Below are positions 16,215 to 33,963 of a stretch of DNA of 42,708 nt, one piece after another. Every line of letters starts with the position of its first letter. Within the stretch, counting starts at the first letter, position 1. The translations under genes were made by a program, and so were the position numbers. The notes beneath the pieces were generated by a model. That model saw only the letters and a list, made by a program, of their open reading frames with translations. It did no database searches and was not told the origin of the DNA. The DNA comes from Nitrospirota bacterium (GTDB lineage Bacteria; Nitrospirota; Thermodesulfovibrionia; Thermodesulfovibrionales; UBA9159), in the NCBI GenBank assembly GCA_021790195.1, contig JAJYIF010000024.1:1-42708 (forward strand). Reading direction: 5' to 3'.

Positions 16215-18158
16215 CTATTCACCTTCTCTTGAGCTTTTCGACGGGAAATATTCGCAGATCGTCTTTATCCTCTTCAAGATCGATTCAGCCTCTTTCCGAT
16301 TTAGCCGCTCGATAATAAGTCTATCCGCTATCGCGCCAAGCACTTTGCCCGGCATTTCGTATTCGATATCAACGCTCAGCATGGTTCCATGAGCATCTTT
16401 TTCAAAGCGGTATGTCTCCCGAACAGGGAACGCCCCGTCCATTTTCATAGAGAATTCCCTGTTCTTGTGAAAAGAAACGACCTCGCCTCTGCCATTAAAA
16501 TTGATTCCGACCATTCTATAGGACCATTCGAACGTAATGCCTGCAGTGATCACAGTGCCCGAAACATTCCGGATACCGACAAGGCCATTTACGAACTTCG
16601 TCCAATTAGTATGGTCTGTCACAAAATCAAATACTTTGTCGAGGGGGGCTTTTATCCTGATTGCCTTTGAGATACGCGAAACCTTTCCTTCCCTTTTCGG
16701 TTTTTGCTTATGTTCTGCCTCGATCCTATCGATCAGGGTTCTGACCTTTGGCGGCATTTCCCCAAGAGAGCCTAACTTGTCGACGATGAACGAACTATTC
16801 ATGATCAGTTTCATGGAGGACAGAAGATACCGTCGCTTAAATTCGTCTTTCATCAATACAATCTCTTTCAATTTGCCCATATAAAAGCTTCTGTAACTGT
16901 CAATTATCGCCCGATCAATCTGTTTCAAGCTCATTCTATCTGGTTTGATCACGGGATCTATCAGGTTGTATTTCCGATAGTCTCTCTCGACAATGTACGG
17001 CTCGATTTCCTTATACATGTCACTGTACGGCCATGCTGCGAGCGCAAGGTAGTGGGCAAAGTCAGGGTTATAAATTTTTGAAAGAGCGAGGGTCTTTTTG
17101 ACTGTTTCCTTGGTCTCGTGAGGGAACCCGAGTATGAAACTCGTCTCGGTTATCATGCCGTGCTCGTGAATAAGACGTATGGCTTCTCTTCCTGTCTCAA
17201 CATTGACGTCCTTCCTGATCAGGTCAAGCGTCTTCTGATCAGTCGCCTCGATGCCGATATAAATGTGGACAACTCCGGCCTCTTTGTACTTCCATAATAT
17301 GTCCTTGTCACGGATGATGTCCTCGGCCCGGGTCTCCATAAGGAGATATATACCGAGACATCTTTCTCTCAGGAGGTCAAGGAGCCTCTCCCACCTCTCC
17401 CCGCTCCGGGTGGGATACTCATCCGGGATCAGAAAGACATTTACATTGTATGTCTTCTTCAGGTGCTCCAGCTCAGCTACAACGCTTTCGGGCCGCCGTC
17501 CCCGCCATGATTGATGCCAGAACTTCTGCTGCGAGCAGAACGTACAGTTGTGGCTGCAGCCTCTCGATGTGCTGACCGCAGCCAGTCTGCTCCCGGGAAT
17601 GACGAAGTATGTGTAATCCCTCCAGTCTATCAAGTCCCAGGCCCTGGCAAGACGGTCAAGATCCCTGATGAAAGGTCTCGGCGGTGTGGCGATAATTTCC
17701 TGCCCGTTTCTATATGCGATTCCTCTCACTTTTTGGGTCTTCTTGCCAGCTCGGATGGTCGAAAGCAGCTCGCTAAGCGTTTCCTCTCCTTCCTCTCTGA
17801 CCACATAATCGACAAAGGCGCTATCAAGCACCTCTTCAAAAAGAAATGTTGGATGAACGCCGCCGATGATAGTAACTATACCCGGGTTTACCTCCTTGGC
17901 AACCCTCAGGACTCCGAGCGCGTCGGTAACTGTCGAAGTGATGGCTGTCGTTGCAACAAAGTCCGGCTTGTTCTCTCTTATCGCCCTCTCTATCTCGTGG
18001 AAACCGTGCCGCTTCGTCATGGCATCGTAAATAACGGGTTCAAAACCTGCTTCCCTGACGGAACCTGCGAGGTAGACAAAGGTAAGCGGGACCCAGCGGC
18101 CCGCGACTTCCACTACGCCGCAGTGATATGGAGGAGTTATGAAAAGGATCTTCTTCAT
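16215..18158 (-). CDS. B12-binding-type radical SAM protein fused to an SRPBCC domain
   Basis: A 647-residue protein with three parts. The N-terminal Rossmann-like domain (about 1-140; ILFITPPY, FVATTAITSTVTDALGV, IIGGVHPT) resembles cobalamin-binding domains but has no DxHxxG. The radical SAM core has the CxxxCxxC cluster C201/C205/C208 (GCSHNCTFCSQQ) and a typical HGMITETSFILGFPHET strand. The C-terminal domain (about 497-634; KAIRIKAPLDKVFDFVTDHTNWTKF) has the SRPBCC/START-like hydrophobic-ligand fold pattern. It may bind SAM, a 4Fe-4S cluster and perhaps cobalamin, and act on a lipid-like or tetrapyrrole-like substrate; that is inference. The start is ATG 18158; a GTG at 18161 overlaps the previous stop. 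It is the last gene of the cytochrome-iron operon. Confidence 0.85.
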   Translation of the reverse strand: MKKILFITPPYHCGVVEVAGRWVPLTFVYLAGSVREAGFEPVIYDAMTKRHGFHEIERAIRENKPDFVATTAITSTVTDALGVLRVAKEVNPGIVTIIGGVHPTFLFEEVLDSAFVDYVVREEGEETLSELLSTIRAGKKTQKVRGIAYRNGQEIIATPPRPFIRDLDRLARAWDLIDWRDYTYFVIPGSRLAAVSTSRGCSHNCTFCSQQKFWHQSWRGRRPESVVAELEHLKKTYNVNVFLIPDEYPTRSGERWERLLDLLRERCLGIYLLMETRAEDIIRDKDILWKYKEAGVVHIYIGIEATDQKTLDLIRKDVNVETGREAIRLIHEHGMITETSFILGFPHETKETVKKTLALSKIYNPDFAHYLALAAWPYSDMYKEIEPYIVERDYRKYNLIDPVIKPDRMSLKQIDRAIIDSYRSFYMGKLKEIVLMKDEFKRRYLLSSMKLIMNSSFIVDKLGSLGEMPPKVRTLIDRIEAEHKQKPKREGKVSRISKAIRIKAPLDKVFDFVTDHTNWTKFVNGLVGIRNVSGTVITAGITFEWSYRMVGINFNGRGEVVSFHKNREFSMKMDGAFPVRETYRFEKDAHGTMLSVDIEYEMPGKVLGAIADRLIIERLNRKEAESILKRIKTICEYFPSKSSREGE

Positions 18159-18160
18159 CA

Positions 18161-18565
18161 CTACTCTCTCTTTCCGGTCCGGATTCTAAGATGCACTATC
18201 CTTTTTCTTATTCTGACCCAGACGTAAATCCCCGATCCGACGCAAATAAATGCAACGATGTGTTTGACGATCAGGGCAGGCACCTGACCTTTGCCCGCAG
18301 CGTTGGCCCACTCAAAGTCCTTATAGAATATGACCCTCGGTATGCCGCCGATAATTATCCATAATAAAGAGAACTGCGCAAGACGTGTCATGCCGCGGTG
18401 TATCCTAAGAAAGTAATCAGCTGTCGCAGTTGCAGGCGCGTCGTCGAGCCTCCTAAGCATCAGCCACATCGCGATGCCGCTTGAAAGCAGCAGGGCTGTA
18501 GCAACGTCGTGCAGATAGTTATTCATCATAAGTAGGACACCTGCTGAAGCGCTCAACTTGATCAT
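18161..18565 (-). CDS. Small three-helix membrane protein with conserved-type His (CopD/DUF2269-like)
   Basis: A 134-residue integral membrane protein with three helices (about 14-37, 62-81 and 96-118). His19 (NYLHDV), His56 (RIHRGMTR) and His102 (VKHIVAF) sit at or near the membrane, a pattern seen in heme- or metal-binding membrane proteins such as CopD-like or DUF2269 families. I do not assign a family firmly. ATG 18565 overlaps the TGA of the ATPase gene (ATGA), so translation is coupled. Its own stop overlaps the GTG/ATG start region of the radical SAM gene. It may be an accessory to the ABC or heme-handling parts of the operon. Confidence 0.65.
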   Translation of the reverse strand: MIKLSASAGVLLMMNNYLHDVATALLLSSGIAMWLMLRRLDDAPATATADYFLRIHRGMTRLAQFSLLWIIIGGIPRVIFYKDFEWANAAGKGQVPALIVKHIVAFICVGSGIYVWVRIRKRIVHLRIRTGKRE

Positions 18566-19236
18566 CTGTATTCGTCCCTGATTATCTTTCCGTCTTCCAT
18601 GGTAATTGTCCTCCGTCCCCATTGGGCGACAAAGGGATCGTGGGTGACAAGGATTATGGTGAACTGCCGTTCCGAGTAGAGCCTGTTTAGGAGCTCCAGT
18701 ATCTTCCTTGTGTTCTCCCTGTCGAGGTTGCCGGTCGGCTCGTCGGCAAGCAAGATCTGCGGGCTGTTGATCAATGCCCGTGCAATACAAATGCGCTGCT
18801 GCTCGCCGCCGCTCAGCTGCGAAGGCTTGTGGTCAATCCTGTGCCCCATTCCGACTCTTTCGAGAGAATCGGCAGCCTCTCTCTCGTCCGCGATGCTGTG
18901 AAAATACTGCGCCAGCATAACATTCTCCACCGCGTTGAGGTATGGTATAAGGTGCGATTGCTGAAACACAAAGCCGATCTTCTCTCTCCTAAATCTCGCC
19001 ATCTCGTCCTCTTTCATCGCGGTGATGTCCGTGGAATCGATAACGACCTGACCGCTGGTGGGATTGTCGAGACCGCTCATGATGTTGAGAAGCGTGCTCT
19101 TGCCGGAACCGGAGGGACCTACAACACTGACCCACTGTCCCTTTTCAACAACCATGTCGATACCCCTTAAGGCAGAAGCCGTAGCATATTCCTTAGAAAC
19201 GCACCTTAATTTTATAAACTCATCTGCACTGCCCAA
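18562..19236 (-). CDS. ABC transporter ATPase of the iron/cytochrome operon (Cj1663/LolD-MacB type)
   Basis: The 224-residue ATPase has Walker A GPSGSGKS, the signature LSGGEQQR, Walker [13 protein letters not shown] and the switch His in THDP. It belongs to the MacB/LolD/FtsE group that pairs with FtsX-type permeases, two of which are encoded immediately upstream. The start is TTG at 19234-19236, since no ATG is available until the P-loop region; AGAGGTG lies about nine bases upstream. The permease stop (19240-19242) is four bases before it. In the Campylobacter Cj1658-1663 and enteric Fet loci an equivalent ATPase acts with two FtsX permeases in iron uptake. Confidence 0.88.
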
Positions 19237-19239
19237 TGT

Positions 19240-20352
19240 TCATTCACCTCTCAGTATCGCCGCTGCATCATATCTCATGGCTCCCCTCACGGGGAAATGG
19301 CTTGCCGTAAGGGCTATCGAAAGTCCCATAGCAAGGGAAAGAAGGATCATCCATTGAGGCAGATGGATGAAGGAACCAAATGCTCCTCTCGAGATCGCCT
19401 GGGCCGATAGATAGCCGGCAATGAAGCCTGAGAGACCGCCCGAGAGTCCTATTATAACAGCCTCTGTCGTATAAAAAAGAGTGATCTGACTTCTTGACCC
19501 TCCCAGCGCCTTCATGAGACCGATCTCTTTCTTCCTTTCAAATACATTGGCGCTTACTGTGCTAGCCACGCTGACTGTTGAAGCAAATAGCGCGATAAGC
19601 GTGACCAGCGTCATAAGGAGCTGCATCTTCGAAAGCAGAGATTCTTCTGCAGACGCGACTTGCCTCAGGGTCTTGGCCGCAACCGCTGGAACATCCCGGA
19701 CGATATCCCTGGCTATACCATCTAATTTCCCCGGCTCACCCCTGACGAGAATAGCGCTGAAAACGTTGTTTGTCCCCGTCAGCTCCCATGCGTCTTCGAT
19801 CGACATGATGATACTGCTGTCTTCAGGGCCACCTTTTTCTACGAAGCCGCTCACTATGAAGTCCGCTTTGCCGCCGTTGCTTTCCAAAGACAACGTCTTG
19901 CCGGGTGCAAGCCTCAGGGCGTCCCTGAGATCGATTCCGGCCAGGACCTCGTTTCGTTTCGCCGGCCGATCTCCGATAAATCTCCAGCCGCTGTATTTCA
20001 ATCTGTCGATGTTTAGCCCGATAAGCTCAATCGCGTAACCGCCTATAAACACCTTCCCGAGAACCTGTCCTGATGCATCTTCTACATGCTGAATTCCTCT
20101 GATCTTGTCCAGGGCCGCGGCCTCGATAGAATCTCCGTTCCGGGGAGAGACGATTATGTTCGCGCCATAGGCCTTAAGTTCCGCGCCGAGTTTTTCCCTT
20201 ATGCCCGAATTGATCCCTGCCAGCGCGGTTACCATGGCAACGGCCAGCATTACAGAGAGGGAGGCTATGACAACCCGCCCTTTTCTCTGCGAGACGGACC
20301 TCGCAAAGAAGAATAGGAAACGGCGGATTTCAAACCTGCTTAACACCTTCAT
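19240..20352 (-). CDS. FtsX-type ABC permease 2 (Cj1662-like)
   Basis: A 370-residue permease with an N-terminal helix (VVIASLSVMLAVAMVTAL), a periplasmic domain beginning LKAYGANIIVSPR, and three C-terminal helices with FERKKEIGLMKALGGSRSQI. It is homologous to its upstream neighbour, so the two probably form a heterodimer with the ATPase. ATG 20352 overlaps the previous stop by four bases (ATGA). The pair with FTR1 and DUF2318 upstream is the layout of Fet-type iron systems. Confidence 0.85.
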   Translation of the reverse strand: MKVLSRFEIRRFLFFFARSVSQRKGRVVIASLSVMLAVAMVTALAGINSGIREKLGAELKAYGANIIVSPRNGDSIEAAALDKIRGIQHVEDASGQVLGKVFIGGYAIELIGLNIDRLKYSGWRFIGDRPAKRNEVLAGIDLRDALRLAPGKTLSLESNGGKADFIVSGFVEKGGPEDSSIIMSIEDAWELTGTNNVFSAILVRGEPGKLDGIARDIVRDVPAVAAKTLRQVASAEESLLSKMQLLMTLVTLIALFASTVSVASTVSANVFERKKEIGLMKALGGSRSQITLFYTTEAVIIGLSGGLSGFIAGYLSAQAISRGAFGSFIHLPQWMILLSLAMGLSIALTASHFPVRGAMRYDAAAILRGE

Positions 20353-21593
20353 TGCTCACCTTTGAGTATGACGGCGGACCTTACTTCCATCGCCTTCTTA
20401 ATCGGGAGCACTGTGCCGGCAATAGAGACGCAAGCCGCGCCCGCCATTGTCATCGGCAGAAGCATCGCTCTCTGTTCGAGGGCGATGCCAAAGACCTTCG
20501 TCCCTATGTATTGGGACGCACCGACTGAAAGGAGATAACCGAACAGACCGCCCGCGAGGCCTATCATTATTCCCTCGGTCACAAATATGAGCGCTATCTT
20601 TTCCGAACCCGCCCCAAGAGCCTTCATGAGTCCGATCTCTTCCTTCCTTTGCACAAGGCCCATTATCATGGTCGTCGAAACACCGAGGGTGGAGGCGGCG
20701 AGAGTCATAAGGCACAGCAGATAAACCAGAACCTTCAATCTCTTGAGGACCTTACCTTCAGTCCCTGCGACCTGCCATATCGGCCTTGCCTTTGATCCTT
20801 TAAACACATCCTCAATCTGTTTGGCAATCGAGGTGACATAGCCGGTGCAATACCACTTTTCGTATTCTGCCTTGGACATGGAGGCCGGGTCCCTGTAAGC
20901 GAAAGTATCCATCGGAGCGGTAAGGGCGCTCACGAGGACCTTCGAGATCTTGCCTCCCGCACCCTTCAGTCTCTGCAAGGATTCGAGGTCCATAAAGATC
21001 TGCCTGTCCTCAATGCCCCCGGAATCAAGAGTTCCTGAGATTTTAAGCGGCGTTCCGTCCACATCTATTCTATCGCCCGGTTTGACGCTGAATTCAGAGG
21101 CGATGGAAGAACCGATTACAATATTGTCTGCAGAATCCGACCATTTTCCTGAAAGAGACCACCACGGCGAAACGGTCTTTATCCCGACGGGAAAAGTTCC
21201 CGTCTCTCCCGGAAGAGGCAATTCCTTATAGTACCACGAGCCAATGAGCCCGACCTTCTCGGACTTTCCATTGCTTGTGATTTCGGCGTCGGTCTCCAGA
21301 AAAGGTGCTATGCCTACTATATTGTGTCTCCAGAAAATAGTTTTTGCCCTGACGATATCTTCATAACGTAAATATCGCCGCTGTCCCGAGAGGTCGGCCA
21401 TGCCTTCTATTTCAGGCTCCACAAGTATGTTGGCTCCGAATGCCCTCAGCTCCCTTGAGACCCTGCCGCCTATTTCCATGGAAATAACGATCAGAGAAGA
21501 CGCTATTGCCGTGCCGAAAGTTATCGACGCGATCATAAGTGCAGCCGCCTTCTTCCGGTTAGCAAAAGACCTTCTGACAATAGTCGCGATCAT
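20349..21593 (-). CDS. FtsX-type ABC permease 1 (Cj1661-like)
   Basis: A 414-residue permease with the same topology: one N-terminal helix, a long periplasmic domain starting LRAFGANILVEPE, and three C-terminal helices with QRKEEIGLMKALGAGSEKI. The segment KWYCTGYVTSIAKQIED before IWQVAGTEGKVL is the sort of sequence seen in the first permease of the Campylobacter/Fet loci (from memory, not searched). The ATG at 21593 lies two bases after the stop of the ResB-like gene. Substrate unknown; iron, or a thiol or heme-related compound, would fit the neighbours. Confidence 0.85.
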   Translation of the reverse strand: MIATIVRRSFANRKKAAALMIASITFGTAIASSLIVISMEIGGRVSRELRAFGANILVEPEIEGMADLSGQRRYLRYEDIVRAKTIFWRHNIVGIAPFLETDAEITSNGKSEKVGLIGSWYYKELPLPGETGTFPVGIKTVSPWWSLSGKWSDSADNIVIGSSIASEFSVKPGDRIDVDGTPLKISGTLDSGGIEDRQIFMDLESLQRLKGAGGKISKVLVSALTAPMDTFAYRDPASMSKAEYEKWYCTGYVTSIAKQIEDVFKGSKARPIWQVAGTEGKVLKRLKVLVYLLCLMTLAASTLGVSTTMIMGLVQRKEEIGLMKALGAGSEKIALIFVTEGIMIGLAGGLFGYLLSVGASQYIGTKVFGIALEQRAMLLPMTMAGAACVSIAGTVLPIKKAMEVRSAVILKGEQ

Positions 21594-21595
21594 GA

Positions 21596-22594
21596 CTATA
21601 TATACGCTCTTCTCTTCCCTATCGTTTCAGTCACAAAAAGCGCCAATCTCAACGGCAAGCCAATTATGACAAGGACGATGCCCGCCACAACAAGCGGGAC
21701 CCCCCGATCTTCCACAGCTTCCAGTCTTATCCAGTAGCCGGTATCGAGAAAGGTCAGGGTGAGGTTCTCAAAATCGATCCCTTTATCCGAAGGCCATTCT
21801 CCTATAAGCCTTTCCCCCCTGAAGATGGTAACGCGGTAAGCAGGAGTTTTGAGATTGTAGACTCTTGCCGAGCTTCTGCCTTTCTCTATCACCTTTTCTG
21901 GACTGAGCATCAAGTTAAACCTGAAGGGAAGGCCCTGTACCGTGAAGCTGTCCGAGCTTCCCGGAGGCAGTATCCTCTGGGGCATGTAGCCCTGTATGAC
22001 GGTCCTTCCGCCCGATGTTATTCTTATGCCGGGGGCAAGGCCGAACTCCATGATATGGAAATAGCTGCCGCCGAGCCTGCTGGGCGGGTAAACGCCTACT
22101 TCGTAATCGCGATCAGAGGCTGCCAGAGTCACCTTGGGCTCCATGGAGAAGAACCCTTTCATCTCGTCAATATCCAGCACGCTGCCTTTCAGGTTGGGCT
22201 GGATCTTCTTTACTACATAGATTTCACCGTCTGCGGCCTTGACGGTGTCTTCTTCCCCAAGCACGACCCGCTCCGTATGCTTTGAAGTTATGCTCAGGAA
22301 GAAGCCCAGGAGAAATATGAAGACACCCAATGAAAGAGGAAGCCAAAGCAGCTTGTGAAGGAGTCTTTGCCTTTGATTGTAAACGCCGGTCACGAGATGT
22401 ATGACAAGGTTTACGAGAAGGAAGATAAAGAATGTCTTGAATATAAGATTTGTCCTCAATCCCTCCACAAAATGCTCGAACGCCTCCGATCCCCATATGG
22501 CGACAGTAACATAATATGCAAGCCACGTCATAATGAGCCAGAACAGAACGCCTTTCGACGCCAGGATGCGAAGTATTTTCTTCGGGACGCTCAT
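21596..22594 (-). CDS. Second ResB-like cytochrome c biogenesis protein
   Basis: The 332-residue product has three N-terminal helices (LFWLIMTWLAYYVTVAI; FKTFFIFLLVNLVIHLV; LWLPLSLGVFIFLLGFFL), a periplasmic beta-rich domain and one C-terminal helix (VPLVVAGIVLVIIGLPL). This is the ResB/Ccs1 layout, shorter than the ResB at 25349-26650. The start ATG 22594 overlaps the TGA of the FTR1 gene (ATGA); a long upstream extension in the same frame lies inside that gene and is not coding. Two ResB-type proteins with one CcsA suggest a specialised maturation system. It could instead pass electrons or heme to the transporter. Confidence 0.75.
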   Translation of the reverse strand: MSVPKKILRILASKGVLFWLIMTWLAYYVTVAIWGSEAFEHFVEGLRTNLIFKTFFIFLLVNLVIHLVTGVYNQRQRLLHKLLWLPLSLGVFIFLLGFFLSITSKHTERVVLGEEDTVKAADGEIYVVKKIQPNLKGSVLDIDEMKGFFSMEPKVTLAASDRDYEVGVYPPSRLGGSYFHIMEFGLAPGIRITSGGRTVIQGYMPQRILPPGSSDSFTVQGLPFRFNLMLSPEKVIEKGRSSARVYNLKTPAYRVTIFRGERLIGEWPSDKGIDFENLTLTFLDTGYWIRLEAVEDRGVPLVVAGIVLVIIGLPLRLALFVTETIGKRRAYI

Positions 22595-24006
22595 TTTACA
22601 GACCCTTTGGTCTTCCCTGTTTTGACATCCTGCCATTTCTTCAGAATATCGGATGCCTGAATCCTTACGTCTCTGTCGGTTACTACGGCATTCAACGGTA
22701 TGGGGTTGCATCCGCCCGGTTCGCCGATACTCTTCAGGGGGATAGGGGTCTTGCAGTACAGGCACACTATGCGTTCATGAGACTGGCCGTATCCCTCCTG
22801 AGGGCATATTTCACAGGCATCGAGACATGTCGCGAGTCTGCCGTCCGGCTTCTTAACTATAAGAATCCGAATTACATCACTGCCGGATGAAAACGAAAAC
22901 TTATGGATGCGACCGTCGAAGAGGTCGTCACCGGATTCTCTCAGGGGGATCGAGATGACTCCTTTGTCCGAAACAACGGGCAATGGCTGAGGGAGATAAA
23001 GTGATGTGGATCTCTCGCCGGAAGCCGCGTACCAGGATGCAAACACCAACAGAAGGGAAATGAAGACAGGCGCGGTGACCTTTCTCCTGCGGGACCTCTG
23101 TGCCGCTATGAACGCCCTCCGGTGAGCGCCCTCCTGTGTCATCTCGATGCCGGTCATTGGACTGAAGATTGTCTTAACGATATAAATGGCAAGCGGAGCC
23201 GCCAGGACGAAGAGGGCGATGACGATCGCCAGCGTTGAGCCGAAAAGGAAGCCCACAAATCTCCAGACAAAAGGGGTGAGGAGAGGATGGTCCGGTAACA
23301 TGAGAATAACAAAAAGCTGGTGAATCATATCATGGAGCATCTTCATGGCCCCACGTTGAACGGACGAGACAAGAGTCATCTCCGCAAAGCCCCTGATACC
23401 GCCGCCTATCAGCTTAATTACCGCTAAAGAGAAAAGCAGACCCGGGAGATCAAAGAAAGAGCCTATTCCCTTCTTTCTCAGGTACGATGCAATGGGGATT
23501 CCAGGGCCTGCCGACAGGACAAGTCCCATGAACGCGGAGAAATAGCAGCCATAGGTGTTTCCTTTCATTAGTGCAGTCTCGTGCAGAAAAGCGAAGGCCC
23601 CGACATTTTCGGGGAGAAAGAGCATAAATGGAACAGCGAAGCAGACGGCGGTGACAAAAAAGCTGTTATTGCCCGCCTTCTTCAGCGGTCCGAGAAGCTC
23701 AATCCCGTGTGTCTGATAAAGGCCGATTACGGCAAGAATATAAAGCATCGCGAAGGAATAGGCTATGAAGTTGCCGATCTCTTCCCTGACGTCGATATGG
23801 TTATGGATAGTAAAGGCTGCTATGGCCACGGAGAGGGTCAACGACAGAATCAATCCAATGATAAATGCTTTTGTCCACTTCGATGCCGCGTGACTCTTAT
23901 CGCCTGAACGCGCATCCAAGAAGGAGATTACGAAAAGGCTGACGATGCAGACCTTCAGGCCCTCTCTGAATATGATTATAAACGGTGCGGCGACAAAAGG
24001 ATTCAT
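22591..24006 (-). CDS. FTR1-family permease fused to a DUF2318 domain, with altered REXXE motif
   Basis: A 471-residue fusion. Residues 1-275 are the seven-helix FTR1/EfeU-type iron permease. The C-terminal part (about 330-460) is a DUF2318 periplasmic domain with Cys394, 398, 401, 415, 418 and 433 in CLDACEICPQ...VCLYC...GGCNPIPL, a likely metal or Fe-S type site. In Campylobacter (Cj1658, Cj1660) the two parts are separate genes. The first FTR1 motif, normally REGLE, reads REGLK here (R14-K18), and the later motif region reads LHETALMKG without Arg, so classical ferric iron transport is doubtful. ATG 24006 follows the lipoprotein gene by 12 bases. No P19 or oxidase gene is seen nearby. Confidence 0.85.
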   Translation of the reverse strand: MNPFVAAPFIIIFREGLKVCIVSLFVISFLDARSGDKSHAASKWTKAFIIGLILSLTLSVAIAAFTIHNHIDVREEIGNFIAYSFAMLYILAVIGLYQTHGIELLGPLKKAGNNSFFVTAVCFAVPFMLFLPENVGAFAFLHETALMKGNTYGCYFSAFMGLVLSAGPGIPIASYLRKKGIGSFFDLPGLLFSLAVIKLIGGGIRGFAEMTLVSSVQRGAMKMLHDMIHQLFVILMLPDHPLLTPFVWRFVGFLFGSTLAIVIALFVLAAPLAIYIVKTIFSPMTGIEMTQEGAHRRAFIAAQRSRRRKVTAPVFISLLLVFASWYAASGERSTSLYLPQPLPVVSDKGVISIPLRESGDDLFDGRIHKFSFSSGSDVIRILIVKKPDGRLATCLDACEICPQEGYGQSHERIVCLYCKTPIPLKSIGEPGGCNPIPLNAVVTDRDVRIQASDILKKWQDVKTGKTKGSVK

Positions 24007-24018
24007 CTTGATAACCTA

Positions 24019-24498
24019 TCAGACCGGTGAGAGGTCGAAGACCTTCCAAAGTCCTTTTTCTCTGACCATGTTATATCTCATGTGATATTCAATGGAGGTC
24101 AGGGGCTTGGCCTCTTCTTTTGTTTTCACATTGATACGCCTGTATCTCCAGTTTTCCTTTGTCGTCACCACAACATTGTCCGGTCCCCATCTCTCGACTT
24201 TTTCTATGCGCATACGCTCCAGCTCGGCCTCCATAATAAGAGACTGAGAAAGAATATCTTCTATGAGATGAGAGACCTTATTGAATTCCCTGTCTGTAGC
24301 AAAATCCCTCAATGGGGCCGGATCGTTCTGCCTATATGCAGACACGAGCGCCTTGTTGTAGGCTCTGACCGCACTTACGGCATCGGCGGCGTCAGGGTCT
24401 TTTCTAAGAAAATCCTTAACGGACGAAAGTTCGATGAAGTCATTTGAACAACCTAAGAGAAAGATCATAAATGTAACGGCGCCTATGATTCTCTTCAC
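24019..24498 (-). CDS. Small lipoprotein with NTF2/IMS-like domain
   Basis: The 159-residue product has a lipoprotein signal with lipobox LLGC (Cys16), so it should be anchored to the outer or inner membrane. The mature part is helical then beta-rich (VRAYNKALVSAYRQND, VVVTTKENWRYRRI, LWKVFDLSPV), like NTF2 or IMS-type domains; I hold that family call loosely. The start is GTG 24498, with GAGG eight bases upstream, ten bases after the ccsA stop. Its place between ccsA and the FTR1 fusion suggests a periplasmic partner of one of them. Confidence 0.65.
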   Translation of the reverse strand: MKRIIGAVTFMIFLLGCSNDFIELSSVKDFLRKDPDAADAVSAVRAYNKALVSAYRQNDPAPLRDFATDREFNKVSHLIEDILSQSLIMEAELERMRIEKVERWGPDNVVVTTKENWRYRRINVKTKEEAKPLTSIEYHMRYNMVREKGLWKVFDLSPV

Positions 24499-24508
24499 TT
24501 CTTCGCCC

Positions 24509-25342
24509 TCATGGCTTCATGATCTGCGTATGCACATCGCCCACGAACCCTACCCCGAAGAAGGCAATGATTATTCCGAGGAAGGAGAATAGGGCAAGCC
24601 ATGAAGCCTTCTTGCCCTTCCATCCAAGAGTAAGTCTGAGATGCAGATTGATGCCGTAAGTGAGCCATGTTATAAGGGACCACGTCTCGATGGGGTCCCA
24701 TCCCCAATACCTTCCCCAGAGCCCATGGGCCCATATTGCGCCCGCGCCGATCATGACCGCGTCCGTGATAAATCCGAACATGATGAACTTGAGGCATATT
24801 TCATCGAGCCTCGTGAGGGCTGGAGTAAGAGTCACTGCTCCTGTTCCTTTATTGCTATTTGCCTTTGATGACTTCGACAGGTAGATTATGGATACCGCCG
24901 TTGCCATCAGGTACGAACCGAAGGCGAACCACGCAAAAAATACATGCACATATAGCCACGTGCTTTGATACGGCGGCTCAAGGGGCGCCATTTCGGCCTT
25001 TGCCATTATGCCATTGCCGAGAATAAGGACCGTAGCCGGCATCACAACAAGAGAAAGAATCCTTCCCTTCGGGAAATATCTGAGCGTGAACAGGAACGCC
25101 AGCATAACAAACCATGCGCCGAAGAGGGAATTCTCGTAAGTGCCCATAACGGGCATGTGCCCCGTGGATATCCATCTGGTGAGGACCGCGCCGCTTAAGA
25201 AGACAAATCCGACGAGAGTACTTATGTACGACAGGTAGACGGGTCTTTCCTTCTTAAAAATGACGCCCGCCAAGTGTCCTAAAAAGGAAATGACAAGGAT
25301 AAAAATGGAAGACCAAAGAAGAATACCTTCCAAGAGGGTCAT
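24509..25342 (-). CDS. ccsA: CcsA-type cytochrome c synthase subunit (System II)
   Basis: A 277-residue membrane protein with about eight helices and the heme-handling WWD motif WAHGLWGRYWGWDPIETW (204-221). His residues near helix ends (H62 in RWISTGHMPVMGTYENSLF, H133, H234) fit the heme ligands of the CcsA/CcsB family. With ResB it exports heme and attaches it to CxxCH motifs of apocytochromes in the periplasm. The gene follows resB by six bases, so the two form the expected heme lyase pair. The giant multiheme cytochrome upstream is the obvious client. Confidence 0.92.
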   Translation of the reverse strand: MTLLEGILLWSSIFILVISFLGHLAGVIFKKERPVYLSYISTLVGFVFLSGAVLTRWISTGHMPVMGTYENSLFGAWFVMLAFLFTLRYFPKGRILSLVVMPATVLILGNGIMAKAEMAPLEPPYQSTWLYVHVFFAWFAFGSYLMATAVSIIYLSKSSKANSNKGTGAVTLTPALTRLDEICLKFIMFGFITDAVMIGAGAIWAHGLWGRYWGWDPIETWSLITWLTYGINLHLRLTLGWKGKKASWLALFSFLGIIIAFFGVGFVGDVHTQIMKP

Positions 25343-25348
25343 ATTCTA

Positions 25349-26650
25349 TTATGATAATCGTTGATTTTGCAGCTTTTCAACGATCCTCCTTATTTCTTCC
25401 TCGAAGAAGTCGGGGAAATATTTTGTCCAGCCCTTTATGAGTGCCTTGTTCCCTGTAATGCTGATCTCCATCTGTTTATCGGGGAAGACGAATCTCAGGG
25501 CAAGACCGAGCACCCCCATGCCGAACCCGGCGGCAAAGATCCAAAGTCCATAGTCCCTTCCCACGATGAGGTCAACCCAATAGTTGAGGGCGTCAAATTT
25601 GATATAAAGTCCGCCGATATCCACCGTGTCTCCCAGACGAACAAAGTTCCTGCCCAATTCCCGGCCGTTCGAGGTCATCCTTAGCAGGAAGACCGGATTC
25701 TTTGGAACGATGCTTCTGCTTCCGAACCGGCCGTTATCGTAAAAGAAGTCGGGGAAGAATTCCGTGTAAATCAGATACGGCGTATTGGGTATCAAGAAAG
25801 AATCTTCTTTGCCTCCGACGACGACAAGGTTGACCGTGGCATTCAGGACCTCCCTGCCTTTCTCGTCAGTTACCTTGAAAGAGGGGGCGAATCCGAACCT
25901 GTGAAGACTCAGCTGGAATCCGCCCATGTCCGCAGGTTTATTTACGTGAACGTCTTTCCGCGCTCCATCGATGGAGAGTTCGGCAGAAAAGTCTTTCGCG
26001 AATTTTCCCTTTTCATAGGACGGCACGAACCTTTTGAGCTCGACGACCGACGACGGCACTTCAGAGAGCCATCTGTTTTTATATATCTTAACGAAGGCAT
26101 CCTTTCCAAGCTTCATTGGAAATCCTTCCGTCAGAAGGAGTTCAGCGCTGAACCTTGTAATGGAAGAAACGACCACCGCGATAAAGACCACAAGGAGGCC
26201 GAGATGAAATAAGACAGAGCCGTGAAAGCCGTAACCGCCTTTTGTGGCCTTTAGAGTATCGTCCTCTCTCACCACGCGCCATTTTTCGGATGAAAAGATG
26301 GAAAATATCTCTTCGTACCTCAATTGTGTTTCACCTGCTGCTTCCCTGTAAAACCCTCCTTCTCCGGCGGTCTTCAGACAGAGGCGCTTCATCGTACAGA
26401 GAGCGGTGCTTAGAAATATCAAGGCTGGCAGGACGAGGAAATAAGGAGACGAGATGAGTGTCTCGATCTGGAGAGAGTTGCTTATCAGGAAGAGAAGCGG
26501 CCGGGAGGTCTTTAGTGCGCCGGTCTCTTCAGGGGTCATCGAAGCTATATCGGGAAGAGAGGTGCCCAGGATAAGAAATGCGACCATGATTGCAAGAAGA
26601 TAGACGGCAAATCTTCTTGAGGGAAGGAGCCGAGTTAATCTATGCATCAT
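25349..26650 (-). CDS. resB: ResB cytochrome c biogenesis protein (System II)
   Basis: A 433-residue ResB/Ccs1 protein: helices near residues 14-32, 65-85 and 150-166, a large periplasmic domain, and a C-terminal helix (LWIFAAGFGMGVLGLAL). A His at the start of the third helix (GFHGSVLFHLGLLVVF) is in the place of a heme ligand. It acts with CcsA to ligate heme to c-type cytochromes. The start is ATG 26650 or the next codon 26647. It begins 115 bases after the giant cytochrome gene; I saw no terminator in that gap, so co-transcription is likely. Confidence 0.9.
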   Translation of the reverse strand: MMHRLTRLLPSRRFAVYLLAIMVAFLILGTSLPDIASMTPEETGALKTSRPLLFLISNSLQIETLISSPYFLVLPALIFLSTALCTMKRLCLKTAGEGGFYREAAGETQLRYEEIFSIFSSEKWRVVREDDTLKATKGGYGFHGSVLFHLGLLVVFIAVVVSSITRFSAELLLTEGFPMKLGKDAFVKIYKNRWLSEVPSSVVELKRFVPSYEKGKFAKDFSAELSIDGARKDVHVNKPADMGGFQLSLHRFGFAPSFKVTDEKGREVLNATVNLVVVGGKEDSFLIPNTPYLIYTEFFPDFFYDNGRFGSRSIVPKNPVFLLRMTSNGRELGRNFVRLGDTVDIGGLYIKFDALNYWVDLIVGRDYGLWIFAAGFGMGVLGLALRFVFPDKQMEISITGNKALIKGWTKYFPDFFEEEIRRIVEKLQNQRLS

Positions 26651-26764: not shown

Positions 26765-29700
26765 TTATGGATTGGTGTCGTAATCGTAATTAGCTGCTCC
26801 ACTCGTGAAAGACACGCCGTTATGGGAATGTGCGCAATTATCCACTGCATCCACGCTTCCCTTTGTCCAGCATGATCCAGCGCTAGCCGTCGTTGAGCGT
26901 GTGACTGCGTACCAGGTCGATCCCCCAAGAAGCCGCTTACCCGAGTAACTCCCGCCGCTTCCGTTGAATCCCTTCCCGAGGTTTTCGCCGTGTATGCCGC
27001 CTGTCCTTGCTCCGCCGTGGCAGTTCATGCAGACGATACCCCACTTGTTTTTCGCTGTTAATGAGTGAGAGCCGGAGTCCACAGGATGGCTCTGGCGTGA
27101 ATATCCGGGGCTGGCCGGCGAAGTATAATTATAATCTCCATACACATCCCTCCTGTGGCAGTTTAGGCAGAAAAGATACGTGTCACTCGGACTAAGACTG
27201 TAGGCCGTATCAACCCCGCTTGAGTTCAGAGAAATAAAACTCTGGACGACCGCCTTTCTCAGCAAATACTTTGTTGCCGAGCCATGAGGCCCCATGGGGT
27301 CGGTGGTCGTGTCGCTCTCGTGACAGTCCGAGCAGCGCATGGTCGACCAGGGTCCCCATGGCGGGACAAAGGTGCTGCCCAATCCTGCTGTTACCGACCA
27401 GTACTGAGTGCTCGCAACAGCTATCGCGGGCGTAACTGTAAAATGCGTGCTGTCCGTAATAGATACGACCTGGAACCAGCCGTAACCCGTCCCCCCGGCT
27501 GCCGGGGTTTTGGCACTATTGTTGGGATTGTCACCGCCATGTGTTCCGGTTGTATCGACCCATACATACCAGCCGGGTATTACGGACTTCGGCAGTGCAG
27601 CAGCACCTCCGAAAGTGGCATTGCCGGACGAGTCTATTGTTAAGACATCTGTTGTTGAAGTAGTGCCGTATTTAGGCCAATTTGGATTCCATGAAGTTGT
27701 GGCGGCCGTATTGTAATTTGCGGTTATCGGCTGGTTCTTGCCTATCGCGAATATTGGGTGGTAGCCCAGGTTGTTCGGGCTGAATTCGTTAGCTTTGTCT
27801 CCCTGCGTCGCTGTGCCGCCCACTGTATTGCCCCATGTCGAAGAAGTGCTGTTCGGCAGCCCTGAAGCCGTTGCGGGCGCAGTAGATCCATAGGCATAAG
27901 CGGAGTGGCACTTGATGCAGATCTGACCTTGTATTGTGGCGCTCTCGGTCCTGTTCCATGTTGAAGGAGAGGTAAAGATCGCTGTGCCGGTCTTGCAATT
28001 GCCGCTCGCGCCGGCATTGGAATCAGTAGCATCATTAGTTGTTGTCGAACTCCCGCATGCGCCACTGCTGTCGTCCCAGTTTGTATAGGAACTATAGGTC
28101 GGCCAGGTAGGGTTGAGGCCCCATACACCATTCTGAGGCCCCCTGACGGTGTTTCCGTCGCTTGTGCCTCTCTTGAAGATAATGAACCCGCTGCCGGTTG
28201 TAGCGCTCCCCGTGCCGGGCGCAGTGGCGAACTTCACGTATATCTGGTTTGCCGTGTTCCCGTATATTACGCTCATCTGTCCGGCTCCTGTAGCCGACTG
28301 GGTAGATAATAATTGCAGGATTTTCACCGTGTAACCTGTCCACTGGTCGGCTGTCCAGTTCGGTGTACCGTTGGCTGTCAAAGTATCGTATGAAGCTCCG
28401 CTTGAGTAAGCGTTCACACTCCCTGTTGCATTGCCGCTCGCAACCGGCTGGGCGGCGTGTGGGTTATGGCAGTCTGCGCATTCAATGTGCCTGTTTGTGC
28501 CGCTGAGCGTGCCGTCGTTGGCAGTTGCGCCCTCGTCTGCAGGCTTGTGCAGTCCTGAATAGTTCTGGACCTCATGCCCAAACGTGTATGTAGCGGACGT
28601 AAAAACATTGTATATAAGCTCTGATGCAACCGACATTGCTTTCCCCAGAGTGCTGCCGTACCAGTCATAACCCGGATTAGGTTTTACGGTTCCGCCCACG
28701 GTATCGGTCGTCCTCGAGTGGCACCTGTAGCAGAACTGCTCTTCATAGTCCGCGGACACGGTTCCTCCAAGGGACGACAGGAGCCTTTTTGCTGTGGAGT
28801 CATGCGTTCCCATGTCATTTGCCGAATAGAACTGGGCTGTCTCGCCGTTTTGTTCGTCGTGGCACTTGACGCAATTGGCGTTGAACGTCTTTGATCCTGT
28901 CTTTGTCGTCATCGCTACGTTATATTGATGGGCCGACGAGTAGAAATTGGCTTTCGTCACCGTGAGTGTCTTAGTGGAGCCCGTCTCTGTCGCCTGCCTT
29001 CCCGTGTCCTTAATGAGATTTCCTGTGCCGTGGCAGCTTACGCATATGCCTCCGTTAGTCAGGGTATTGTCGAAGTCCGTATTCGTATAACCCGAAGACG
29101 CTGTGGGCTGCACCGTGATGTCGGTCCTCAGGTTCATCGCCCTGGGTTGGGTTAATGCAGCGTTGGTGTTCATCCTGTCGCTGAACTTGTTGTGCTTCAC
29201 ATGGCACATGAGACATTTCCTGCTCGCCGGGTTTGTGCCCGTCGACCAGTTCCCCTGAGGAACTACATTGGCAGCGGCCGCATTGTAAGGATAGTCGCTG
29301 TCAGGATCTGATGTATTCGGAGTATATGCTTCGGTATTGATGGAGTGGTGATATGTGGTATTGGAAGTCAGATCGATCTTATGACAATCCGTGCACCGGG
29401 TCGAAGGATCCAGATCGTTCCAGTTAAGAGTCGTATTGGTATTGTCCGCAGTGGTTGTACCTGTCGGATGGCATGAGACATTGGAGCATGTGCTGACTCC
29501 TGAGTATGCGTTATATGTATAAGTCAGACTCACCGTACCAGAAGCGCTCACGTTCTCACCGGTCGGATATGAATTTGACGCATTACCGCTCGTAACAGTA
29601 TACGAACCGTTTGCATGAGTCGTGCTTCCCGTTGCTATAGTCGCGCTGTCCGTAGTCGTCTGATAGTGGCAATGCTGGCACTTTGTCTCGCCTGTATTTA

Positions 29701-32700
29701 TCGTGTTTGCGGTTATATGAAGTCTGTGTGCGTTCGGTTTTGCGCCGGCGATCTGCGTTGTTGTGGAATTGTATAGCGGAGCGCCTATCCGGTAATCCGA
29801 CGTATATGTAGAATTCCCGTGGCATGTGTTGCAAGCCACGCTTGTGGGACCCCATGTCGGAGTGCTGCCCGCGCCGGTAAGCCCGGACCATATAGAGGTG
29901 CCGTCGCTGTGACACTTGATATCCGTGCAAGAGCCGTAAGCCGTCCCGACGGTCTTCTGATAAACGTTGGTCCCCCCTGCATTCTGAGAATTATAGGTGG
30001 CCGTGTTAAGGGCGGCATTCGAATCGAGGTTTATTGTTACGTAGCCGTTCACGTGGTTGGCATAGGTGCCTATAGCGGAATTTGAAGAGGCAGTAGCATT
30101 GTGACAGTTGTTGCAGGTCGCGCCTTTCAGGTGCCCGGAATGAGAACCGCTCGAAAGCGAGCTTGCATCGCCGTGACAGCCGTTACATCCAAGGCTCGAC
30201 CCCCACGTTGGATTGCTATATGTTATGGCCGCCTGGGCATCTGAATGACAGTATATGTTTGAACATCCTCCATATGCGTCGCCGGGCGCGGGCGTGCCCG
30301 TGTATGAGCCGACTACCGAGATATTCCCAACTGTACCGTTTATAGCAACGTCCACATTGCCGTCGGCGTGCTTCGTTGTTCCTTCTCCCGCCCCGTTGTG
30401 ACATAAAGTACAGGCGAATCCATATGTGCTGACGTGCTTGGTATGGCTTCCGGAATCCATAATCGTTGCGTTGCCCGAAGATCCGTCAGCCTTATGGCAT
30501 GTGCCGCACTGACCTGAAGATGCGTTTCCCCATGTCGGTGACGCGTAGGTCAATGCGCCGCCGGGAGGTGACGTCTGGACATTACTATGACAGTAAAGGT
30601 TGGAGCAATTGCCGTAGGCGTCGAGCATGGTCGGAGTTCCGCTGTACGCTGCGGATGCCCCGATGTATGTCTTTGAGGTATCAAAGGCGAACTCGGACTG
30701 GTTGTTCACGTGGGTCGTCGTTGCAGCGGGCGGCACATATCCGTTATGACAATCCGAGCACGGCAGCGCCCTGTTTGGAGATGCGCCTGTGTGTTTTTGA
30801 TGGCTGCCCAGAAGGGGAGGGTTGGACGCCGAAGCGCCGTGGCACGCCCCGTTCGGATTGCTGCTGCATGAATATGATCCTGACGCTGCTGTCCATGAGG
30901 GGGTTGTTGCAGTCCCGTTGTTGTTCCCCATGGTCGAGCCGTGACAGTAGACGGAGCATGTCGGATCTGACGTGGTGATGTTCACCGTTGTCCCGGCGGC
31001 CGTACCATATCCGGTATATGGAGAAGCCGGAGCGCGCGCATTAAGTGTGCCGGAAGCAATGGACCCGTTGAAATTCGGCACATTGGTGGCGTTCAGCGCG
31101 AATCCCATATCAATGGTATAGCTCGGAATTGCGTTCGTCGGCATGCCGCCCGTATGGCACGCTTCACAGAGCATTGCCCTTGTTGTAGCGTGGAAGACGT
31201 GGGCCCCGGCGCTCGAAGGGTTGGTGACACCGGTTGCCGGTGTTGCAACGCCAGGAGGCCCGATAGTCCCGTCCTGTGGCGGATCGCCGTGACAACTAGT
31301 GCATCCGCTCATGAAAGCGTTCTTATGGTTATGGCATGTGGTGCAGTCGGCGCCGTTGTTGTGGGAATCGGTTACGGACATATTGTAGGCATGCTTATTA
31401 ACTCCGTTGGCATCTGACGCGTCATAGACATGACAGACTTCACATACAAAAACAGAGGTTGAATGTGTCACCGAATCATCACCCATTATTCCGGAAGTCT
31501 GGGGACCGGGGACGGCAGCTGTTCCGGATTTCACCCTAAAATCGACGGACACACTATTTGTCGCGCTACTCAGGAAGTTCGAGCCGTCCGGAGTGGTTAT
31601 TGCCCCTTTTATCAAGTAAATGTTGCTTGTGCCATGGGCTGTGTGGCAGGTAGTGCAGAGAAAGACGCCGTAGACCCCGCCGGTAACGCCCCAACCGCCA
31701 GAGGACGCATGTTTGCCTGGCGTCCAGGTGCCGTTGCCTTTTGTGGGATCGATGCATTCCGACATCGTTTTGTATAAAGCGTTGGAACAAGTGCCAAGGA
31801 TTTCGGAGCTATGCATCTTGATCGCATTGCCCCAGTCCGAGTTTGCGACGCCGCCGATTACCGAAGGCGTATTCACATTCGTCTTATGGCAAGCCTGGCA
31901 TGTCTCTTCCTGGGACCGTTTCAACAGATTGCCATCACCGGAGCCCAAGGTGGCAATAGTTGTTGTCGCCGTATTGCTCGTAACATCGGCATGTCCGTTG
32001 CCGCTTCCGTCAGCAGCCGTAACCGACGTCTGCTCGGAAGAGCCGATGGTGCCGCCAGAGGCAGTCGTATGCGTCAATGTTGTTGTGCCGGACTGACCTC
32101 CGTTGAGCGGACCGATGGCTGTAGCCCCAAGAGTGGATGCGGTGAAATTAGTGTTGGGAACCAAGGGCAGGTCCGTATTGGTGAGGTTGAAGGAAGTACC
32201 GGAACACACCGCAGTGTCGTTGTTCGTCACGGTTACGGTGTAGTTAACGCTCCCTCCTGGTTTCACGCTTTGTGCAGAAGGGTAAATGGAAACAGAGGGA
32301 TTTGCTCTGACGCAAGTGGCGGCTACCGTAGTGTAAGAGAAAGCATAACTGGAAGCCATGGCATTTCCGGCCGAGTCGGTGACATTTGTTGATACAGTTA
32401 CGGAATAGGCGGTATTGTTCGCCTGTCCGCTCGTAGTAAAGGTAGCAGTGTTATTTAAGCAGCTCGATAATGTCCATCCGGGACTTGTCGATGTTATGTT
32501 AGTCGCATTGACCGTGCTACAGTTTACGTTCTCGCTCCAGGTTATTGTGACATTGCTGTTCAGAGTGACGTTCGTTGCCCCATTCGCCGGATTCGTACTG
32601 CTCACCGTCGGCGTTACAGTATCCACCGTAACAGTTACGCCCGCGCCCGGCGTCTCGACATTATTCGATGAATCAGTGGCCTTGCTCAATATAGTATATG

Positions 32701-33583
32701 AAACCCCGTTCTGGGTAGGCAGTGTCCAACTATAAGACCAAGTAACACTTGCCCCCGGGCAACCCGTGCATGTCGCCGTGTTCCAGGTGGACCCGCCGTC
32801 AGTAGAGACCTGAATGCCGGATACCGCAACGTTATCCGTTGCCGTGCCGGTTATCGCATACGGATTCGGAGATGCGAGATTCAAGGTTGCTCCGCTTGCC
32901 GGCGACGTTATGCTCGATGATGGAGGAGTCGTATCAGGCGGCGTGTAAGTGATTGAAACCTGATCTACCCAAAGGTTTGACGTTGCGGCTCCGGAGTTTC
33001 CGGACTTGGTATTCATTGTGATTCTTATTTGAGTCACATTCTGCGCAAGAGTCAGGGCGGGAGAGTTTGTCCTTTGGGTCCAGGTGCTGTTGGTCAATTC
33101 GCCGGTGCTTAATATATTAACAGTAGTGTTATCGGCATAAACCAGATCCACTGACACATTATCGCCGGTGGTCTCATTGCTGGTTGTTAGCTGTGTCCAT
33201 AAAGATATAGCAGATACGGTTGAGCCCGACGGAATGCTTACCGCCTGAGTTACCGTTCCTGAGACGGCGCTGTTCCTTCCCGAGGTCGCGAGTTTGGCTG
33301 AGCCGGTTCCCGCGTCATATGTGGTTGTGCCGTCATAAGCAGACGTAGCAAACGACCAGTTGGTGCTGCCGGAAAAAACGCCGTTTGTGACCATTTCAGC
33401 GGCATGCGCGTCCCCGCAAACAAGAGCCGACGCGAAGATGACCGTCAAGAATATGCCTTTCATTCGGAATGGAAAAGAATTGCGTGCAACAGCAAAGCCA
33501 CGTTCGACACCAGGCGTTGTCAGTCGAACAGAGGTAAAGAAGTTATTGTTAAAGCTTTTTGCCTTTTCGATCCGTTCCTTCAT
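26765..33583 (-). CDS. Giant multiheme c-type cytochrome with Ig-like N-terminal domains
   Basis: About 2,270 residues. After a signal-type segment (MKGIFLTVIFASALVCGDAHA) come a jelly-roll-like domain and Ig-like repeats (DTTPPSSSITSPASGATL; VTPTVSSTNPANGATNV; SVKPGGSVNYTVTVTNND). From about residue 560 to 2190 I count 23 CxxCH motifs, four CxxxxCH (CSNLYCH, CSNIYCH, CTDIKCH, CSNVSCH) and one CxxxCH (CSVYCH), about 28 possible hemes. The mixed motifs match the Geobacter-type CxxxxCH/CxxCH repeat family. Likely role: extracellular or outer-surface electron transfer. The start is uncertain: ATG 33583 (used here), ATG 33463 just before the signal peptide, or TTG 33637; none has a good ribosome-binding site. 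The gene precedes the resB-ccsA pair on the same strand. Confidence 0.85.
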   Translation of the reverse strand: MKERIEKAKSFNNNFFTSVRLTTPGVERGFAVARNSFPFRMKGIFLTVIFASALVCGDAHAAEMVTNGVFSGSTNWSFATSAYDGTTTYDAGTGSAKLATSGRNSAVSGTVTQAVSIPSGSTVSAISLWTQLTTSNETTGDNVSVDLVYADNTTVNILSTGELTNSTWTQRTNSPALTLAQNVTQIRITMNTKSGNSGAATSNLWVDQVSITYTPPDTTPPSSSITSPASGATLNLASPNPYAITGTATDNVAVSGIQVSTDGGSTWNTATCTGCPGASVTWSYSWTLPTQNGVSYTILSKATDSSNNVETPGAGVTVTVDTVTPTVSSTNPANGATNVTLNSNVTITWSENVNCSTVNATNITSTSPGWTLSSCLNNTATFTTSGQANNTAYSVTVSTNVTDSAGNAMASSYAFSYTTVAATCVRANPSVSIYPSAQSVKPGGSVNYTVTVTNNDTAVCSGTSFNLTNTDLPLVPNTNFTASTLGATAIGPLNGGQSGTTTLTHTTASGGTIGSSEQTSVTAADGSGNGHADVTSNTATTTIATLGSGDGNLLKRSQEETCQACHKTNVNTPSVIGGVANSDWGNAIKMHSSEILGTCSNALYKTMSECIDPTKGNGTWTPGKHASSGGWGVTGGVYGVFLCTTCHTAHGTSNIYLIKGAITTPDGSNFLSSATNSVSVDFRVKSGTAAVPGPQTSGIMGDDSVTHSTSVFVCEVCHVYDASDANGVNKHAYNMSVTDSHNNGADCTTCHNHKNAFMSGCTSCHGDPPQDGTIGPPGVATPATGVTNPSSAGAHVFHATTRAMLCEACHTGGMPTNAIPSYTIDMGFALNATNVPNFNGSIASGTLNARAPASPYTGYGTAAGTTVNITTSDPTCSVYCHGSTMGNNNGTATTPSWTAASGSYSCSSNPNGACHGASASNPPLLGSHQKHTGASPNRALPCSDCHNGYVPPAATTTHVNNQSEFAFDTSKTYIGASAAYSGTPTMLDAYGNCSNLYCHSNVQTSPPGGALTYASPTWGNASSGQCGTCHKADGSSGNATIMDSGSHTKHVSTYGFACTLCHNGAGEGTTKHADGNVDVAINGTVGNISVVGSYTGTPAPGDAYGGCSNIYCHSDAQAAITYSNPTWGSSLGCNGCHGDASSLSSGSHSGHLKGATCNNCHNATASSNSAIGTYANHVNGYVTINLDSNAALNTATYNSQNAGGTNVYQKTVGTAYGSCTDIKCHSDGTSIWSGLTGAGSTPTWGPTSVACNTCHGNSTYTSDYRIGAPLYNSTTTQIAGAKPNAHRLHITANTINTGETKCQHCHYQTTTDSATIATGSTTHANGSYTVTSGNASNSYPTGENVSASGTVSLTYTYNAYSGVSTCSNVSCHPTGTTTADNTNTTLNWNDLDPSTRCTDCHKIDLTSNTTYHHSINTEAYTPNTSDPDSDYPYNAAAANVVPQGNWSTGTNPASRKCLMCHVKHNKFSDRMNTNAALTQPRAMNLRTDITVQPTASSGYTNTDFDNTLTNGGICVSCHGTGNLIKDTGRQATETGSTKTLTVTKANFYSSAHQYNVAMTTKTGSKTFNANCVKCHDEQNGETAQFYSANDMGTHDSTAKRLLSSLGGTVSADYEEQFCYRCHSRTTDTVGGTVKPNPGYDWYGSTLGKAMSVASELIYNVFTSATYTFGHEVQNYSGLHKPADEGATANDGTLSGTNRHIECADCHNPHAAQPVASGNATGSVNAYSSGASYDTLTANGTPNWTADQWTGYTVKILQLLSTQSATGAGQMSVIYGNTANQIYVKFATAPGTGSATTGSGFIIFKRGTSDGNTVRGPQNGVWGLNPTWPTYSSYTNWDDSSGACGSSTTTNDATDSNAGASGNCKTGTAIFTSPSTWNRTESATIQGQICIKCHSAYAYGSTAPATASGLPNSTSSTWGNTVGGTATQGDKANEFSPNNLGYHPIFAIGKNQPITANYNTAATTSWNPNWPKYGTTSTTDVLTIDSSGNATFGGAAALPKSVIPGWYVWVDTTGTHGGDNPNNSAKTPAAGGTGYGWFQVVSITDSTHFTVTPAIAVASTQYWSVTAGLGSTFVPPWGPWSTMRCSDCHESDTTTDPMGPHGSATKYLLRKAVVQSFISLNSSGVDTAYSLSPSDTYLFCLNCHRRDVYGDYNYTSPASPGYSRQSHPVDSGSHSLTAKNKWGIVCMNCHGGARTGGIHGENLGKGFNGSGGSYSGKRLLGGSTWYAVTRSTTASAGSCWTKGSVDAVDNCAHSHNGVSFTSGAANYDYDTNP

Positions 33584-33963
33584 CCTATCAGTCTTTTCTG
33601 GGCATAAATATATTGTTTCAATACTTTTTAACTGCAAGAACCATGCCTTTAGTTGCGGCGAACAGGCTTCTTTTTCATATAATAAGAATTCCCTTGTATA
33701 CTAGTAGTTGGAAACATGCGGCAAGGTTCTGAAACGCCTACTGTCAGCAATTTGGGTGTAATAACACTGGTAATAATTACAACAAGTGTACAGAATGCCC
33801 GATTTCCTAATATTTATAATGTAGATATCAGCTATTGGGCCAATATGCGTTTTCGCTAAAGAGATCAGCCGAAAGGCGCACAATCATAAAGAAGCTCGTA
33901 AAATCAAGCAGTTAGCGTTTTGTGCAGATCTCCCGATGTTAAATGAAAAGAAAACAGTGCTAA
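33584..33963. other. AT-rich spacer upstream of the giant cytochrome
   Basis: About 380 bases between the start of the cytochrome gene and the end of the exporter operon. It is AT-rich and should hold the cytochrome promoter. The best candidates on the minus strand are weak (TTGCAG near 33630 with an AATATA/TATATT box), so I do not call one. No gene or clear terminator seen. Confidence 0.4.

Follow-up and report, generated by a model that had tools for sequence, protein, structure and literature searches.

In the window, as we call the whole stretch of 42,708 nucleotides analysed in this work, one gene encodes a FetA-type protein in whose membrane domain both REXXE motifs are broken. The REXXE glutamates of FTR1 permeases bind iron in transit. 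Judging from its relatives, the altered first motif, REGLK, has been inherited within a subfamily found mainly in Nitrospirota and is not an error, and the membrane domain itself derives from FTR1, our confidence being high for both anatomy and ancestry. We infer the function with moderate confidence overall. In the reading that we prefer, and to which we give a little short of even probability, the protein may be a pseudo-permease that anchors a redox domain on the periplasmic side, within a complex that is powered by ABC proteins and includes a ResB paralogue, and that probably serves cytochrome c maturation. The genes and motifs concerned are listed in Table 1.

Table 1. Positions in the window of the FetA-type gene, its motifs and the surrounding genes.
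Feature	Position	Strand	Length
FetA-type protein: FTR1-derived 8-TM domain (residues 1-332) and DUF2318/FtrD-like domain	22591..24006	-	471 aa
Altered first motif R14-E-G-L-K18 in TM1 (REXXE equivalent)	23953..23967	-	
P132-E-N-V-G136, true equivalent of the second REXXE, outer end of TM4	23599..23613	-	
Periplasmic segment H225-D-x-x-H229-Q ... P-D239-H240	23287..23334	-	
DUF2318 domain (residues ~345-457), CxxC-x13-CxxC-x14-C, predicted Rieske fold	22636..22974	-	
ResB paralogue	21596..22594	-	332 aa
FetB-like MacB/FtsX-type ABC permease	20349..21593	-	
FetC-like MacB/FtsX-type ABC permease	19240..20352	-	
FetD-like ABC ATPase (LolD/MacB group)	18562..19236	-	
Small membrane protein without Pfam/NCBIfam match	18161..18565	-	134 aa from ATG
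Putative lipoprotein, weak NTF2-like matches	24019..24498	-	159 aa
CcsB/CcsA-type cytochrome c assembly protein	24509..25342	-	
ResB, cytochrome c maturation system II	25349..26650	-	

The original prediction had described an FTR1-type region fused to a DUF2318 domain with six cysteines, and this anatomy was borne out: the 471-aa protein matched PF10080 (FtrD-like, formerly DUF2318) in Pfam with an E-value of 1.5e-24, and six Cys residues were counted in the DUF2318 part (394, 398, 401, 415, 418 and 433). The cut-offs of the FTR1 families were not reached by the protein (PF03239, 15.6 bits vs 25.3; EfeU NF041756, 19.9 vs 255). Eight membrane helices with both termini in the periplasm fit the hydropathy profile, the loop charges and the AlphaFold helices. 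With this topology the regions of the old iron sites (14-18, 132-136 and 205-209), the segment 225-240 and DUF2318 would all face the periplasmic side. The predicted first motif is present in the open reading frame and its codons are clean (AGA GAG GGC CTG AAG). The second motif is broken as well, as had been claimed, though not at LHETALMKG, where the claim had placed it; the alignment with FTR1s that keep REXXE identified P132-E-N-V-G136 as the real equivalent, and LHETALMKG lies after it.

A genome scan with the single protein returned no relatives, the patterns being too specific. In a search of 101 genomes (the window's own and 100 relatives), orthologues were present at 34-42% identity, along with another group of more distant proteins, and GTDB genomes queried with the class II alignment added 79 further loci. 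When aligned to one profile, the proteins fell into three classes. Class I comprises the canonical fusions of Acidobacteriota, Chloroflexota, Methanoperedens, Verrucomicrobiota, Myxococcota and Tectomicrobia (47 loci, a count that takes all non-class-II rows minus nine class III rows), all 47 of which keep REXXE in TM1 and TM4, together with HExxE in TM6. Class II, with 22 members including the window protein, is mostly from Nitrospirota; its usual motifs are [KR]E[AG]xK in TM1 and P[DE]xxG in TM4, the TM6 His is lost, and a normal REXXE was found in 0 of the 22 proteins. The nine class III proteins, from Nitrospirota, mostly carry REALQ and FEARA. Lys18, the conservation of which had been proposed as a check, is found in 17 of the 22 class II proteins and is absent from the canonical fusions, where Glu occupies the position in 47/47, a pattern that is not due to chance. 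Close homologues with REGLE, the finding named beforehand as one that would refute the prediction, were sought among the orthologues, and none was detected.

Several pore residues of class II have changed in concert (E18 to K, R132 to P, E136 to G and H205 to K/R), and Glu15, the acidic residue at 133 and Glu209 mostly remain. Homology of the class II membrane domain to FTR1, EfeU and FetM extends from end to end, and class II differs from them in the two broken REXXE motifs and the broken TM6 His, in the sub-cut-off scores and in an extra periplasmic segment; in this segment H225, H229, D239 and H240 are invariant (22/22), and it is mostly missing in the canonical fusions.

Profile comparisons show the FTR1 ancestry of the class II membrane domain, which matched that of the canonical fusions with an hhalign value of 99.6% over the whole length and stand-alone FTR1s with 97.3%, about 270-280 columns being aligned in both comparisons. 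In the maximum-likelihood tree, classes II and III formed one clade on a long stem (support 100/100), one branch setting class II apart (98/94) and another class III (97/89). With FTR1s taken as the outgroup, the simpler interpretation is that REXXE was lost; the tree method infers no root, and the FTR1 rows do not lie on one side of a branch. For the membrane part of E. coli FetA the comparison with FTR1 gave hhalign values of 80% and 52% in two runs, which is only suggestive of the same ancestry. Only weak matches were obtained in a Foldseek search with the whole model. The membrane part also resembled helical bundles of the MFS type (Z about 10), but such scores are often reached between helical bundles and the match was set aside.

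The DUF2318 domain, modelled alone from 42 sequences, reached a pLDDT of 94.4 and is predicted to take a Rieske fold. Every match listed by Foldseek (best E 3e-3, probability 1.00) was to a Rieske protein or a Rieske oxygenase, and the same was true of those listed by VIA-align, including T4moC (1vm9; Z 8.6, 103 residues, rmsd 3.1). Although the E-values are modest, the hit list is specific. No convincing match was obtained when PDB sequences were searched with the DUF2318 profile, and no sequence search linked DUF2318 to Rieske proteins. Compared with the Rieske [2Fe-2S] proteins T4moC and BphA3, which its predicted fold resembles, DUF2318 has CxxC and CxxC at the ligand positions instead of CxH and CxxH, and these four cysteines are invariant in 44 sequences. 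From the order of the strands, the CxxC pairs would be located in or at the edges of the inter-strand loops where Rieske proteins carry CxH/CxxH. Cysteines 398, 401, 415, 418 and 433 fit the CxxC-x13-CxxC-x14-C motif described previously (PMC6083913), and in the papers on Fet systems the DUF2318 cysteines are regarded as possible Fe-S or disulfide sites (PMC10783030, PMC6083913). We found no mention of a Rieske fold for DUF2318 in the Fet-system literature searched.

The gene neighbourhood distinguishes class II from the canonical fusions, with which it shares the fusion itself and the ABC partners. FetB-FetC-FetD-type genes follow the class I gene in 45 of 46 loci, and no ResB relative was found beside it in any of the 46 or at the class I row L110, which was counted separately. 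In class II a ResB paralogue is present at 19 of 20 loci, and at the exception (L076) the contig ends about 100 bases past the gene. Most class II genomes have the gene order B-C-D-A-ResB-like, and the order A-ResB-like-B-C-D is seen in the window and at two other loci (L058 and L060). The partner gene of the window is homologous to ResB (hhalign 99.4%, E 1.8e-21; unrelated controls below 1%), the ResB match of single paralogue sequences being weak or below the Pfam cut-off. Heme binding by the paralogue through a transmembrane His was considered but given up, since it has no conserved His of this kind. The components of system II (ResB-CcsA) also occur in their own right: the window encodes a true ResB and CcsB just upstream, and true ResB/CcsB genes lie on the same strand within 7 kb at 6 of the 20 class II loci, with none within 7 kb at the remaining 14 and at 0 of the 46 class I loci. 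The neighbours of class III are CcsB, ResB-like, ResA-like and BchE-like genes.

Other genes of these regions were also recorded. In several genomes class II and class III copies are located within about 10 kb of each other (e.g., L035:15858-17153 and L037:7456-8817), the class III copy being without ABC genes. Relatives of the small membrane protein of the window recur near class II/III loci and CcsB. At the end of the operon-like run (16215-18161, minus strand) lies the gene of a radical SAM protein that binds B12, is closely similar to BchE (429.6 bits, the cut-off being 481.35) and has a polyketide-cyclase/SRPBCC-type domain at its C-terminus, and a BchE-like gene also adjoins a class III locus (L035:14395-15858). 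Directly upstream of ResB-CcsB, a gene at 26765-33637 (minus strand) encodes a protein of 2290 aa with 23 CxxCH motifs, a candidate very large multiheme cytochrome.

As a rule, ABC proteins of the MacB/FtsX type pass force on to the periplasm instead of carrying solutes across the inner membrane. In the mechanism that we propose, Lys18 would neutralise Glu15 at the former place of the iron and close the old path. The neutralisation is suggested by the occurrence of Lys18 only together with Glu15 (17/17, compared with Glu15 in 1/5 of the proteins without Lys18; Fisher 7e-4, kinship ignored). The conserved business end would be periplasmic, made up of the Rieske-fold domain and the HDxxHQ...PDH segment. 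DUF2318 may hold a disulfide or else an iron centre, of Fe-S or rubredoxin-like type, and move electrons on the periplasmic side, the cycle presumably being driven by the mechanotransmission-type ABC proteins. The ResB paralogue could then link the module to cytochrome c maturation by system II, where the module would act on the redox state of heme or of the apocytochrome cysteines, and iron import would be left to FeoB, which can supply it. Since the ResB paralogue is a constant partner and cytochrome c assembly genes lie nearby, the best-supported guess is that the module has a redox role in the maturation of cytochromes c. To our knowledge, neither an ABC transporter nor an FTR1-derived protein is part of system II. 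Whether the parts add up to a previously undescribed envelope redox machine, with a non-transporting FTR1 scaffold, an all-cysteine Rieske-fold domain, a mechanotransmission ABC drive and coupling to cytochrome c maturation through the ResB paralogue, is more doubtful, and we regard this as possible rather than probable. The only tested role of the kind, that of FetA-D of C. jejuni, is iron supply (PMC10783030), and this speaks against the cytochrome reading, as do the missing conserved transmembrane His of the ResB paralogue and the 14 class II loci with no ResB/CcsB within 7 kb.

The main rival builds on this role, and we consider it rather unlikely: the protein would assist iron import, the role ascribed to C. 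jejuni FetA, with the ABC-powered Rieske-fold domain handling the redox state of periplasmic iron and passing the iron to a separate permease such as FeoB. The original prediction had called for comparison with Cj1658 (FetM), but by domains and gene order the protein corresponds not to this permease but to C. jejuni FetA (CJJ81176_1651), which has eight TM helices and a DUF2318 domain (PMC10783030). FetA of the FetMP-FetABCDEF system and the 'Fe-S-containing protein' of the E. coli FetMP plasmid locus share with class II the 8-TM architecture, the DUF2318 Cys motif and FetBCD-type ABC neighbours, even though the sequence similarity to the membrane part of E. coli FetA is weak. FetA, FetB, FetC and FetD are each needed for the growth of C. 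jejuni in low iron (PMC10783030), the same A-B-C-D genes make up the E. coli locus, and FeoB is present in 22/22 class II genomes. However, class II is without FetM, P19 and the YHS domain, and has the ResB paralogue where the Fet system has thioredoxin genes. FTR1 above the Pfam cut-off was found in 0 of the 22 class II genomes, some of which are incomplete, and P19 in 0 of the 101 genomes, the window's own included, and 0 of 18 further ones. This implies that the known FetMP partners are absent. Moreover, an accessory role leaves the ResB paralogue and the neighbouring cytochrome c assembly genes unexplained.

It is unlikely that the protein has remained a transporter, whose substrate (ferrous iron, heme or another metal) would enter at the His/Asp segment and whose selectivity Lys18 would tune. 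The invariance of the four His and Asp residues, the acidic residues retained in the pore and the absence of any other FTR1 above the cut-off from class II genomes are consistent with transport, but each motif has lost its final Glu, the Arg of TM4 and the His of TM6 have gone with them, and a lysine is unfavourable in a cation path. In addition, two class II proteins (L013 and L070) are without both E15 and K18, yet their operon is kept. The original prediction that the altered site marks something other than an ordinary ferric permease was supported; of the roles that it offered, a structural one or one with electrons would be a better fit than the passage of a different metal along the same pore, since several pore residues have changed together. 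Finally, a sequencing error or a recent mutation of a normal REGLE, for which the Glu-to-Lys exchange would take only one base change, is extremely improbable and was ruled out by the recurrence of Lys18 among the relatives, including the orthologues at the identities given above, by the intact frame and by the kept operon.

The comparison suggests an origin from FTR1 permeases for DUF2318 membrane proteins of the FetA type and provides DUF2318 with a predicted fold, which makes the biochemical function of Campylobacter FetA, stated as unknown (PMC10783030), testable. The natural variants without REXXE offer a means to test the role of the conserved FTR1 glutamates. If the proposed link to cytochromes is true, an ATP-driven component would be added to system II cytochrome c maturation.

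Two further observations concern related genes. In Acidobacteriota, Chloroflexota, Methanoperedens and others (L086-L133), four-gene loci consist of a canonical FTR1-DUF2318 fusion and FetBCD-type ABC genes; P19 was found in 0 of 12 genomes with such loci, which could represent a minimal Fet system. The window's genome also has a second, smaller DUF2318 protein (L002, G000:C23:17659-17943) in an open frame of 168 aa, and similar stand-alone DUF2318 frames are present in several relatives.
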